Shown: piece after piece, positions 5,667 through 16,486 of the stretch
Layout: every line of letters begins with the position of its first letter
Numbering within the stretch: position 1 is the first letter of the stretch
NCBI GenBank assembly: GCA_016235085.1
Contig: JACRMA010000007.1
Coordinates: 1 to 36,767 of the forward strand
Source: Candidatus Zixiibacteriota bacterium
GTDB lineage: Bacteria > Zixibacteria > MSB-5A5 > WJJR01
Direction of reading: 5' to 3'
DNA length: 36,767 nucleotides
The notes under the pieces: model-generated
The model's database searches: none
Told to the model about the DNA's origin: nothing
The model's input: the letters and a program-made list of their open reading frames with translations, nothing else
Program-made: the position numbers and the translations under genes

Positions 5667-5829
5667 GACATCTGGCGGCATCCCCGCGTAGTTACTGCTC
5701 GGACGTCGTGAACCTCATAACCTCTGGGATTTACAGGAGGCTGGCAACGCAACAGGCGCTGGGGGTGAACTGTATCCTTGCTCTCACCCCACATCGATTC
5801 GGATGCGGTACCGTTTGATCGCTCCATGA

Positions 5830-6018
5830 AAGAGACTGGCGCAACCGCCATTGAGGACTCTTGAGGTGACCAGTGCAATTGAGATCATCTTCGGTGTAGC
5901 ACCGACTCCCGACCCGGCGGAATTGGTGGAGTTGAATTGCGATGGACTCGCCGACGTCTTCGATGTGAATCATCTGATCGACTACTCGTTTGCAGGAGGT
6001 CTCACCCCGAGCCAGTGA
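5830..6018 (+). pseudogene. Dockerin gene remnant
   Basis: A 62-codon open stretch follows an in-frame TGA at 5827-5829 and ends with TGA at 6016-6018. Its last part reads NCDGLADVFDVNHLIDYSFAGG, closely matching the calcium-loop and helix pattern of the second dockerin repeats in the genes at 8090 and 16234 (DVFDVI-LI-x-x-FSGG). There is no signal peptide or carrier domain, and a related SDVVNLITSGI stretch in a different frame lies about 120 bases upstream. The most economical reading is the 3' end of a dockerin-tailed protein that has decayed. A short expressed peptide from GTG 5866 cannot be excluded. Confidence 0.6.
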
Positions 6019-6095: not shown

Positions 6096-8072
6096 ATGCG
6101 AAACCGTAATGCCAGATTCTCGGCGATTTTGCTTGCCGGCATGGCGCTGATTGCGCTGACAGCGGGCTCAATGGCGGCCGTGCCGTCCCTGATGAACTAC
6201 CAGGGACGTTTGAACACTCCTGGCGGAACACCTGTGCCTGATGGCAGCTACTCAGTCGTCTTCACCGTGTATGATGCCGCCGTGGGCGGAACGGTCCAGT
6301 GGACGGAGACGCAGTCGATCCTGACTTCCGGTGGGATGTTTGCCGTGCTCCTGGGTGCGTTATCGCCGCTGACTGACGGAGTCTTCAGCGATACGACCCG
6401 CTATCTGGGCGTCGCAGTTGGAACCGATCCGGAGCTGATTCCCCGGACACGCCTGGTGACTGTTCCGTACGCGTATCGTGTCGGCACACTGGATGGTTCC
6501 TCGGGTGGCGCGGTCAGCGGGAATATCAATCTGGAGAATTCCACCGCTACCGTGGGCAACATCTACAAGGGCACCGACTTCTTCATTCACAATTTTGGAA
6601 GCGAGAATACGTTCATCGGCCGAAATGCGGGCAACTTCATAATGAGTGGTGTTGAGAACACCGCCTGTGGCGCCCTCGCGCTGCGCTTTAACTACACAGG
6701 GAGTGCCAACACGGCGACCGGTTATGCCGCACTCGCTGGTAACAACGGCAACAACAACACGGCGACCGGACACCGGGCGCTCGGAGACAATAGCGTTGGC
6801 GCTGAGAACACGGCGAGCGGATCACAAGCACTCCTGAGCAACTACACAGGCAACGCCAACACTGCCACAGGCTATGCTGCACTCAAACAGAACAACGGCA
6901 ACAACAACACGGCGATTGGGCACACAGCACTTGAAGCCAACATAAGCGGCAATGAGAACACCGCCAGCGGAGTCCAGGCCCTTTGGAACAACAAGACCGG
7001 GGGCGCTAACACCGCCACCGGTTACGCCGCGCTCCTCCAGAACAACGGCAGCAAAAACACAGCAACCGGTCACAGGGCGCTGGAAGCCAACACGACCGGC
7101 AACGAGAACACCGCCAGCGGAGTGCAAGCGCTTCAAGCCAATAGCACCGGCAACTTCAACACGTCCGCGGGCTATGGCACTCTCATGATGAATAATGGCG
7201 ACCGCAATACCGCAACCGGGCACATGGCGCTCGGAGCCAACACCCTGGGCGGGTTCAACACGGCCAATGGGGCAGACGCCCTCAACTTCAACAGCACCGG
7301 CAACGAAAATACGGCCAGTGGCTATGGGGCGCTCCAGATGAACGACGGCGACCGCAATACGGCAACCGGGGTTCTGGCGCTCGGAGCCAACACCGCTGGC
7401 ATTGAGAATACTGCCAGCGGGTGGAATGCCCTCCGCACCAACAGCACTGGCAACGCCAACACGGCCACTGGCTTTATGGCACTATTTCTGAGCACTGGCG
7501 GAAACAACACCGCGGTTGGCCGGGCTGCACTCAGCGCAAACACGACTGGCAGCAACAATACGGCGATCGGGTTCCAGGCGAATGTTTCGACAGGCACACT
7601 CACCAATGCCACCGCTATCGGCAATGGCGCGGTCGTCAATGCGAGTGACAAGATTCGGCTGGGCAATGGGGCCGTCACGGTAATTGAAGGCCAGGTGGCA
7701 TACACGTTCGCTTCCGACGCGAACCAGAAAGAGAACTTCCAGCCTGTGAATGGAGACGAAGTGCTCCGCAAGATCCGTGGTCTGAGCCTGACGAGCTGGA
7801 ACTACAAGGCTCAGGATCCGAATCAATTTCGCCATTATGGCCCGGTGGCCCAGGAGTTTTTTGCGGCCTTTGGCCATGACGGTGTGGGGACCAGCGGGAC
7901 ACCCACGACCATCAATTCCGGGGATATGGCAGGCATTCTGATGATCGCCGTTCAGACGCTGGAGAAGAAGAACGAAGCTCTGGAAAAGCGCGCCGAAGAG
8001 GTTGAGGCGTTGAAGGTCCAGATTGGCGAACTGCGCGAGATGATCCGCGCTCAGGCTGGCAACCAGAAGTGA
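6096..8072 (+). CDS. Surface fibre with nested NTA-G-AL repeats and C-terminal S74 self-processing chaperone
   Basis: The product has 658 residues. A signal peptide (about 1-27) leads to a beta-sandwich module (about 30-145) that starts VPSLMNYQGRLN, a domain common in exported proteins of uncultured phyla. From residue 205 to 504 there are six copies of a 50-residue unit, each made of three coils of 16, 17 and 17 residues beginning NTA-x-G; this resembles the YadA-type adhesin head. The tail is an S74 peptidase/intramolecular chaperone domain in which Ser540 and Lys545 (S-D-A-N-Q-K) match the Ser-Lys dyad spacing known from endosialidase tail spikes. A coiled coil covers about 610-655. Trimeric assembly followed by self-cleavage of the tail is expected for the family but not shown here. 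GGAAGGA at 6084-6090 selects ATG 6096 although the frame is open from 5937. Confidence 0.88.
   Translation: MRNRNARFSAILLAGMALIALTAGSMAAVPSLMNYQGRLNTPGGTPVPDGSYSVVFTVYDAAVGGTVQWTETQSILTSGGMFAVLLGALSPLTDGVFSDTTRYLGVAVGTDPELIPRTRLVTVPYAYRVGTLDGSSGGAVSGNINLENSTATVGNIYKGTDFFIHNFGSENTFIGRNAGNFIMSGVENTACGALALRFNYTGSANTATGYAALAGNNGNNNTATGHRALGDNSVGAENTASGSQALLSNYTGNANTATGYAALKQNNGNNNTAIGHTALEANISGNENTASGVQALWNNKTGGANTATGYAALLQNNGSKNTATGHRALEANTTGNENTASGVQALQANSTGNFNTSAGYGTLMMNNGDRNTATGHMALGANTLGGFNTANGADALNFNSTGNENTASGYGALQMNDGDRNTATGVLALGANTAGIENTASGWNALRTNSTGNANTATGFMALFLSTGGNNTAVGRAALSANTTGSNNTAIGFQANVSTGTLTNATAIGNGAVVNASDKIRLGNGAVTVIEGQVAYTFASDANQKENFQPVNGDEVLRKIRGLSLTSWNYKAQDPNQFRHYGPVAQEFFAAFGHDGVGTSGTPTTINSGDMAGILMIAVQTLEKKNEALEKRAEEVEALKVQIGELREMIRAQAGNQK
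6708..7607 (+). repeat. Six tandem 150-bp units (higher-order coding repeat)
   Basis: Units start at 6708, 6858, 7008, 7158, 7308 and 7458, exactly 150 bp apart and always at the Asn codon of an NTA/NTS coil. Each encodes 16+17+17 residues. The sixth unit is degenerate in its third coil. The spacing is exact while the codons have diverged, so selection appears to act on protein register. Confidence 0.93.
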
Positions 8073-8089
8073 CAACCGGGGAGATTGTG

Positions 8090-8719
8090 ATGACAAGGAT
8101 CGCAAAAAGACCAATCGTCCTCCTGCTCCTGGCACCACTTCTTCTAGGCGCGGCCGTGCCGGCGAAGAGGGCGGACAGCAAAGATCCGGCGATACGCCAC
8201 GAGACGGCGAAGGCGATCTCGAGCCTGTCAACAGCACCGGCATCAACGCCGCGTCCGTCGGTAATGACGGCAACTTCGCCCGGCGGCGGCAAAGGCTCAC
8301 CGAGCGCCGCTTCGACGACGTCGACCTACACGATCAATTGGTCTTCCATTAATGGTGGCGGCTTGACCAATTCGTCTTCGCCAAACTACTCCATGGGGAA
8401 CTCGATGGGGCAGTCAGTGGCAGGTTCTGCGACTTCTGCCAGTTACCAAATGGGGACCGGATTCTGGTATGGCGCGGGCGGTGGCTGCTCCTGCCCAAGC
8501 CAGGGGGACATCAACTCCGACGCGGTGATCGACGTCTTCGACGTCATCGGCGTGATCGGCATTGCGTTCAGCGGCGACCCTGACCCACAGGATCCGGGCT
8601 GTCCCAGGATGCGTGGGGATGTCGACAACAACGGTGTCACCGATGTCTTCGACGTGATCTACCTGATCGCGACGGCGTTCAGTGGAGGGGCGAGTCCGGT
8701 CAATCCATGCGGACCGTAG
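8090..8719 (+). CDS. Exported dockerin protein
   Basis: The product has 209 residues. A signal peptide (about 1-25) precedes a low-complexity Ser/Thr/Pro stretch and a module at about 80-130 with the pattern SSPNYSMGNSMGQSVAG and YQMGTGFWYG, seen before C-terminal anchors in many exported proteins. The C-terminal 75 residues are a type I dockerin with two calcium-loop/helix repeats: GDINSDAVIDVFDVIGVIG and GDVDNNGVTDVFDVIYLI. Dockerins bind cohesin modules or anchor proteins by an unknown receptor in non-cellulosomal bacteria. The start lies 17 bp past the fibre stop, with CCGGGGAG at 8076-8083, so the two genes form an operon. A GTG at 8069 in the same frame is less likely. Confidence 0.85.
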   Translation: MTRIAKRPIVLLLLAPLLLGAAVPAKRADSKDPAIRHETAKAISSLSTAPASTPRPSVMTATSPGGGKGSPSAASTTSTYTINWSSINGGGLTNSSSPNYSMGNSMGQSVAGSATSASYQMGTGFWYGAGGGCSCPSQGDINSDAVIDVFDVIGVIGIAFSGDPDPQDPGCPRMRGDVDNNGVTDVFDVIYLIATAFSGGASPVNPCGP

Positions 8720-15808: not shown

Positions 15809-15889
15809 GCCGTTCGACCGCTTTTGTCCGTTAAGCGCCGGGCCGATTTGTCCGGCACAAGAGTCGAACTGTTTATCAGGAGGTATTCA

Positions 15890-16486
15890 GTGAATTTAAG
15901 GAATCTTACCTTGCGTGTACTCATTGCTGCTATCGTGGCGGCATCGTTTCTGACATCGGGTGCGGCCTTCGCGGCCGGAAATTGTGATCCGGCCAACTGC
16001 AAGATGGCCACCAAGGCCGAGTGCAAGGAGAAGTGCAAGACGGGCGACATGAGCAAGTGTACGACGGAGTGCAAAGAGAAGTGCAAATCCGGCGACATGA
16101 GTAAATGCACCGCCGAGTGCAAGGACAAGTGCACGACGGAGTGCAAGGACCAGTGCAAAGCCAACACGGCCTGTGCTCAGAAGTGCACTGAGAGGATCGT
16201 ACGACGAAGGCCGGGCACACTCTGCCCGGCCTTCTATTTTGGCGTGGGGCGAGTTGATGCAGCGCGCGGTGGCTGGCAGGGATTAACCGGGTTGGGGCCG
16301 CTGCTGAAGACCGTTGTGATCAGATCAATCACATCGAAGACGTCAGTCCCCTGGTCGAAATTCACGTCTCCCCTTGGCACGGGGCAGTTGACATCGACTG
16401 TGTCGGGACCGCCGCTGAATGCGGCACCAATGACACCGTTGACGTCGAAGACATCCAGCACTCCGTCACGGTTCAGATCTCCCTGA
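15890..16486 (+). CDS. Exported Cys-repeat protein, metallothionein-like; frame runs past its terminator
   Basis: GTG 15890 follows AGGAGG at 15878-15883. A signal peptide (about residues 1-27, ending AAFAAG) leads to a Cys/Lys-rich region with about 16 cysteines, mostly C-x3-C pairs, built from a 16-residue repeat (ECKEKCKTGDMSKCTT and its copies; DNA units at 16019 and 16067). The pattern suggests metal binding outside the cytoplasm. The last meaningful part ends near 16200 (CAQKC). After that the open frame crosses a perfect 12-bp terminator stem and continues about 80 codons antisense to the dockerin of the neighbouring gene. A lost stop or a one-base frameshift near 16190 (a TGA lies out of frame at 16189-16191) is the likely explanation, so the true protein is probably about 100 residues. 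Confidence 0.65.
   Translation: MNLRNLTLRVLIAAIVAASFLTSGAAFAAGNCDPANCKMATKAECKEKCKTGDMSKCTTECKEKCKSGDMSKCTAECKDKCTTECKDQCKANTACAQKCTERIVRRRPGTLCPAFYFGVGRVDAARGGWQGLTGLGPLLKTVVIRSITSKTSVPWSKFTSPLGTGQLTSTVSGPPLNAAPMTPLTSKTSSTPSRFRSP
16206..16240 (+). terminator. Intrinsic terminator of the Cys-rich gene pair
   Basis: GAAGGCCGGGCA (16206-16217), a 5-base loop and TGCCCGGCCTTC (16223-16234) make a perfect 12-bp stem followed by TATTTT. On the minus strand there is no T tract, so it serves the plus-strand genes although the opposite gene's stop codon lies inside it. Confidence 0.9.

Follow-up and report, generated by a model that had tools for sequence, protein, structure and literature searches.

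The window analysed here is a 36,767-nucleotide stretch of the genome of Candidatus Zixiibacteriota bacterium (contig JACRMA010000007.1), and it holds a gene, P0001, in which a long and exactly periodic tandem repeat precedes an S74 domain. The locus raises the question of what kind of fibre this gene encodes, and whether its 50-residue repeat marks a new architecture or a local elaboration of a known one. P0001 very probably encodes a bacterial surface fibre that is exported by Sec and belongs to the MAT-like/S74 kind, with a base, a 20-coil shaft and an S74 chaperone, and the repeat register is a local elaboration, not a new architecture.

A fibre gene among housekeeping genes

The features of P0001 are as follows.

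6096..8072, + strand: P0001, S74 fibre protein, 658 aa, stop codon included (translation)
6096..6179, + strand: signal peptide, residues 1-28 (identified by eye; MRNRNARFSAILLAGMALIALTAGSMAA)
6150..6560, + strand: MAT_N-like N-terminal base domain, about residues 19-155 (NCBIfam Bdello_MAT_N on the N-terminal piece)
6606..6707, + strand: two leading 17-residue coils, residues 171-204 (coil spacing)
6708..6857, + strand: higher-order unit 1, 16+17+17 residues (coil spacing, unit comparison)
6858..7007, + strand: higher-order unit 2 (coil spacing, unit comparison)
7008..7157, + strand: higher-order unit 3 (coil spacing, unit comparison)
7158..7307, + strand: higher-order unit 4 (79% of codons shared with unit 5)
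7308..7457, + strand: higher-order unit 5 (79% of codons shared with unit 4)
7458..7607, + strand: higher-order unit 6, more divergent than the others and continuing into the cap (unit comparison, dS)
7605..7670, + strand: YadA-head-like closing turn and neck-like strand (TNATAIGNGAVVNASDKIRLGN; sequence, weak local similarity in fold to 3laa, the BpaA head)
7713..7871, + strand: Peptidase_S74/ICA domain with Ser540 and Lys545, SDANQK (Pfam; fold match to the MyRF ICA, 7dc3)
7917..8066, + strand: predicted C-terminal helix, residues 608-657 (AF2 models)

The first-pass annotation, made from the letters of the window, placed the gene in a bacterial operon and not in a phage. Both statements hold: the neighbours of P0001 are the housekeeping genes for bactofilin, SecA, RecR, YbaB and DnaX, with no prophage, and the operon is a two-gene unit with the frame at 8069-8719. 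A tail fibre from a phage or prophage that had landed in the contig would share its shaft and S74 domain with P0001, as both occur in phage fibres, but the neighbourhood contains no phage structural genes, P0001 begins with a signal peptide and a MAT_N-like base, and its partner gene encodes a secreted dockerin-like protein. Furthermore, MAT_N and the GQ domain of the partner were found in none of 75 viral loci with the same coils. On the housekeeping neighbours and the lack of MAT_N in these viral loci we reject a phage origin of the locus, which we regard as highly improbable, and take P0001 for a fibre of bacteria whose shaft and chaperone are also those of phages. Elsewhere in the window, positions 15824-16486 form an open frame with a signal-like start followed by a cysteine-rich tandem repeat of 24/48-bp units, ECKEKCKTGDMSKCT-like.

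An exact three-coil register in the shaft

The P0001 array consists of 20 N-T-A-x-G coils, 18 of which fall into six 50-residue units (nt 6708-7607). Coils start at residues 171, 188, 205, 221, 238, 255 and so on to 488, with spacings of 17, 17, 16, 17, 17, 16, 17, 17, 16, 17, 17, 16, 17, 17, 16, 17, 17, 16 and 17 (no exceptions over 19 spacings). Translation and coil spacing thus bear out the earlier description of six units of exactly 150 bp, each encoding coils of 16, 17 and 17 residues, and Tandem Repeats Finder likewise reports a period of 150 for the repeat region. That this is not a simple array of one motif is confirmed by coil identity, which peaks at lag 3 (0.66, versus 0.53 at lags 1 and 2; z 5.7, and p 0.0025 by coil-order shuffling, the floor of 400 shuffles). 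The order of the coils is beyond chance.

The residue signatures assigned earlier to the three coil classes are kept in four to five of the six units, and none of them extends to all six. First-coil G-Y occurs in five units, with GFMAL in unit 6. Second-coil G-H-x-A-L is confined to units 1-4, the H being replaced by V in unit 5 and R in unit 6, and third-coil A-S-G-x-x-A-L is found in units 1, 2, 3 and 5, with ANG in unit 4 and AIG without AL in unit 6. The first of the two leading coils, NTFIGRNAGN, also occurs in a same-genome paralogue. At position x of NTAxG, 76% of coils elsewhere carry I, V or L, and most P0001 coils carry T, S or N; if this position faces inward, the shaft core of P0001 is polar, as reported for BpaC. 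The Thr-rich NTATG coils prompt the speculative idea that the shaft binds ice.

Coil arrays outside P0001

It had been proposed that the 50-residue register sets the fold apart, a view that would require homologues to keep it. The nearest relatives do not: the same-genome paralogue (contig C30, 579 aa, L002/L253) has 14 coils, all of 17 residues, and a relative from the same class (G016), 49% identical over its length, has only 17-residue coils. In 171 arrays of bacterial and viral-contig origin, spacings of 17 account for 87% of the 2558 counted and spacings of 16 for 7%. Coils of 17 residues are the usual building block of a large family, found in bacterial, phage and giant-virus fibres, and 16-residue coils are sporadic. 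Among the 98 arrays of at least nine coils, P0001 alone has six 16s in strict periodicity, and its lag signal is the strongest; the 16/17/17 register was not found in the other 97, some of which show weaker signals at lags 2, 4 or 5. With no other long array carrying it and the nearest relatives using only 17s, the register is ruled out as a family trait. Together, the weaker lags elsewhere and the restriction of the register to P0001 indicate that arrays of this family habitually amplify blocks of several coils, while the exact 16/17/17 register is P0001's alone within this sample. Five-coil or four-coil block amplification is seen in the NTAxG arrays L045, L145, L166, L177 and L043.

Origin of the register and selection on its units

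Units compared in register are 42-76% identical in amino acids. They use the same codon at a frequency of about 0.5-0.6, versus 0.42 with shuffled codons, and, with the exception of pair 4-5, unit pairs have dS of about 0.9-1.5 and dN/dS of 0.14-0.43, figures compatible with selection on the register itself or on each coil only. Silent sites between units are thus mostly randomised. Pair 4-5 stands apart, with a same-codon frequency of 0.79 (z 4.6) and a dS of 0.66, and units 4 and 5 are the youngest duplication in P0001. Codon sharing and dS rule out a purely recent duplication for every other pair. Taken together, codon sharing, dS and dN/dS fit an old amplification of the three-coil block with a single later duplication, the protein being under purifying selection, and the register is best read as an old duplication of this block held by purifying selection. 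The 150-bp block would have been duplicated repeatedly in P0001 only, and the register would add shaft length and a repeating lateral surface, with no new fold.

One alternative is that the register is a neutral by-product, in which any multi-coil block can be amplified and the block copied here happened to hold one 16-residue coil. Higher-order signals at other lags and the sporadic recurrence of 16s in other arrays agree with this, as do the younger duplication of units 4 and 5 and the block expansion described for BpaC (PMC9543794). However, dS is above 1 in most unit pairs while the spacing remains exact and most class features are kept, which argues that the pattern is not merely recent; we therefore consider a neutral register a possibility to be taken seriously, but somewhat doubtful. 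A second alternative holds that the exact period itself was selected, the three coil classes placing a ligand-binding or lattice-matching surface at every third layer, for example as a ladder for glycans or as a face that binds ice or minerals. The exceptional strength of the lag-3 signal, the in-register identity that persists with silent sites near saturation, and the unusual T, S or N at position x all speak for such a function. Against it, the register is not kept in homologues and the same-genome paralogue works with uniform 17s, dN/dS below 0.5 also follows from general coil constraints and common descent, and the two coils ahead of the units belong to none of them. A functional register is, in our judgement, unlikely. 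Under the preferred reading, an old amplification held by purifying selection, the 16/17/17 register offers a clean natural case of higher-order amplification in a beta-solenoid, for which the uniform-17 paralogue provides a built-in control.

Predicted fold of the shaft

A single-chain AF2 model built with 19 homologues predicts a regular solenoid with strands in every coil and pLDDT of about 76-93 over most of residues 171-490, in agreement with the proposed beta-solenoid shaft; the N-terminal and S74 parts of the same model have pLDDT below 50. A search of the PDB with the whole P0001 model gave no significant structural neighbours, the best (E 0.009) being weak parallel beta-helices. The shaft model does match predicted viral fibres, the best being an FhaB-like protein of Bodo saltans virus, and this match to giant-virus fibres indicates that P0001-type coils also occur in viruses of eukaryotes. 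The identity between the Bodo saltans virus fibre and the shaft model is about 41%.

Both the NTAxG coils and the NATAIGNGA closing turn look like YadA-type head repeats, and over 25 residues the closing turn and neck weakly match the fold of the BpaA head (3laa, E 4.8), as might be expected if P0001 were a YadA-type trimeric autotransporter adhesin with longer head repeats. Yet Pfam identifies S74 only, with neither a YadA_anchor nor a YadA head domain, the C-terminus consists of S74 and a helix, and the coils have 16 or 17 residues instead of 14. A YadA-type autotransporter, for which we see very little room, is rejected for lack of a C-terminal YadA_anchor barrel in Pfam.

The C-terminal S74 domain

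Pfam Peptidase_S74 matches residues 540-592 with 45.8 bits (cut-off 22; E 7.4e-12), and the Ser-Lys dyad lies at the start of the domain (S540-D-A-N-Q-K545, pattern SDxxxK). The earlier assignment of Ser540 and Lys545 to an S74 domain is thus upheld, and is further corroborated by profile and fold matches to the MyRF ICA. A profile search with the S74 part retrieved the S16 tail fibre (6f45) and the MyRF ICA (7dc3). A second AF2 model of this part, with 50 sequences, reached a pLDDT of 76 and matched 7dc3 with E 7e-4 and probability 1.00 (TM about 0.5 as a single chain); fold matches to the phage chaperones 3gud and 3gw6 were weaker.

S74 genes are present in 40 of 58 genomes of relatives, with up to 12 per genome (phylum-level and class-level searches covered the same 133 genomes). 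The Ser-Lys dyad is found in 68 of 72 S74 genes of relatives, picked without regard to the dyad, and Cys-Lys in three; the invariant Ser, Asp and Lys of alignments A1 and A2 are not evidence, as both were picked by the SDxxxK pattern. The three domains with cysteine in place of the catalytic serine (CDxxxK) are L070/L252 (G001), L124 (G050) and L080 (G005), the first of which belongs to a same-genus neighbour of the source genome. Such domains are possibly active with a cysteine nucleophile.

By homology to the S74 family, P0001 is probably self-cutting, as the first-pass annotation had proposed. The S74 domain and the long helix would bring three chains together, after which the shaft would fold; Ser540 with Lys545 would then cut the chain just ahead of Ser540 and release the chaperone. 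From knowledge of the S74 family we infer a trimer, the models themselves being single chains, and the C-terminal helix probably forms a trimeric coiled coil in the released chaperone part.

The N-terminal base and an adjoining partner gene

The N-terminus of P0001 matches NCBIfam Bdello_MAT_N (NF053851) with 31 bits and E 1.7e-7, well under the curated cut-off of 60, and 34 of 36 comparable N-terminal domains of relatives match the same model at E <= 0.01. It is thus plausibly a distant relative of the base of Bdellovibrio MAT fibres, and the fibre may stand on the cell by this base and act as an adhesin. The genome also encodes further MAT_N-like proteins without S74, the C-terminal tip being exchangeable as in the MAT family.

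Three features lie in the partner gene directly downstream, and a fourth upstream of P0001.

8069..8719, + strand: P0002, secreted partner protein (orthologue directly downstream of an S74 gene in G001)
8309..8482, + strand: GQ module of P0002, W...NGGG...Y.M..S.GQ..AG..SSA.Y.M..GFW (homologue comparison)
8498..8716, + strand: dockerin-like tandem at the P0002 C-terminus (GDxNxDxxxDVFD motif)
5829..6018, + strand: fragment similar to the P0002 dockerin-like tail (phmmer search with P0002, E 3e-4)

A better start for P0002 is the ATG at 8090, 17 nt past the fibre stop and preceded by GGAG at 8080-8083. The orthologue in the same-genus genome G001 is 57% identical. The GQ module, whose motif can also be given as W...GGG...Y.L..S.GQ..AG..SS..Y.L..GFW, was not found in Pfam; its similarity to the CPR pilus protein PamT (NCBIfam CPR_pilus_PamT), in the N-terminal part of that model, stays below threshold. 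The P0002 tail gave no Pfam Dockerin_1 match at E <= 0.5; the homologous partners L316 and L303 score above the Dockerin_1 cut-off. The upstream fragment may well be the remnant of an earlier, decayed fibre/partner pair.

A P0002-like gene lies downstream of 19 of 67 S74 genes in relatives, and no GQ gene was recognised downstream of about two thirds of them, which indicates that a fibre gene need not have the partner at its own locus. Conversely, about half of the GQ domains sampled across the phylum, 24 of 47 in 40 stretches chosen by GQ alone, have a MAT_N gene directly upstream, with or without S74. In a second lineage (G133, the genome of L061), each of the four GQ genes is found 250-700 bp behind an S74 gene; nine further genomes contained no GQ genes. 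The tails of GQ proteins vary between a Pfam dockerin, a T9SS sorting domain and others, and the partner of the C30 paralogue has a T9SS sorting tail in place of the dockerin. In the genome of P0001, at least 23 proteins carry dockerin-like tails and there are five cohesin matches, which suggests a genome-wide cohesin-dockerin surface system.

A constant module beside the fibre base, joined to exchangeable tails, is the expected look of an anchoring adaptor. We tentatively suggest that the GQ protein is a dedicated adaptor, which would grip the N-terminal base of the fibre and be fixed to the cell by its exchangeable tail. For P0002, gene order and domains hint at such an anchoring role, in which the base of the fibre would be held by the GQ module and the dockerin-like tail would dock to genome-encoded, cohesin-bearing surface proteins. 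The surface partner of the MAT fibre N-terminal domain is said to await identification (PMC10769870), and the partner gene is a testable candidate for this element. If the adaptor role is true, fibre and adaptor are a two-gene surface-display module shared by two or more lineages of bacteria, which may explain how cells retain MAT-type fibres. The gene pair with P0002, on which the first-pass annotation was silent, is the part of the locus most worth testing.

Comparison with known fibres

Several known systems share parts of this design. Bacterial ice-nucleation proteins (PMC9418140) are beta-solenoids of 16-residue coils for which a three-coil, 48-residue segment was used for modelling; they have no S74, and as no sequence relation to P0001 was found, the analogy is structural only. 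BpaC (PMC9543794) offers a published case of a higher-order repeat of three layers in a trimeric fibre: its head is a left-handed, 14-residue beta-roll whose repeat is attributed to expansion of a three-layer motif. Unlike P0001, every BpaC layer has 14 residues, and its architecture is that of a TAA instead of an S74 fibre.

Phage fibres and spikes with a chaperone (PF13884; SPO1 gp2.52-like, S16 6f45, endosialidase 3gw6/3gud) have the same Ser/Lys S74 domain, and many have the same 17-residue coils, whereas P0001 is a bacterial chromosomal gene with a signal peptide and a MAT_N-like base. The C30 paralogue has the base, capping coil, S74 domain and adjoining GQ partner gene of P0001, and differs in its uniform coils and in the T9SS ending of its partner.

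A further close system is the S74 subgroup of MAT (mosaic adhesive trimer) fibres of Bdellovibrio bacteriovorus, represented by Bd3182, for which self-cleavage at the catalytic serine has been shown (Caulton et al. 2024, PMC10769870). Like P0001, these fibres have a signal peptide, a beta-rich base of ~130 residues, to which that of P0001 is a distant match, a beta-solenoid shaft and a C-terminal S74 domain with SDxxxK, with several members per genome. P0001 differs in that its base match is under the cut-off, its NTAxG coils are arranged in a 50-residue register, a GQ/dockerin-like partner gene lies alongside, and there is no sign of predation. In its order of signal peptide, MAT_N-like base, shaft and S74 domain, P0001 has the architecture of the S74 subgroup, and this architecture, described for predatory Bdellovibrio, is common across a phylum of uncultured bacteria.
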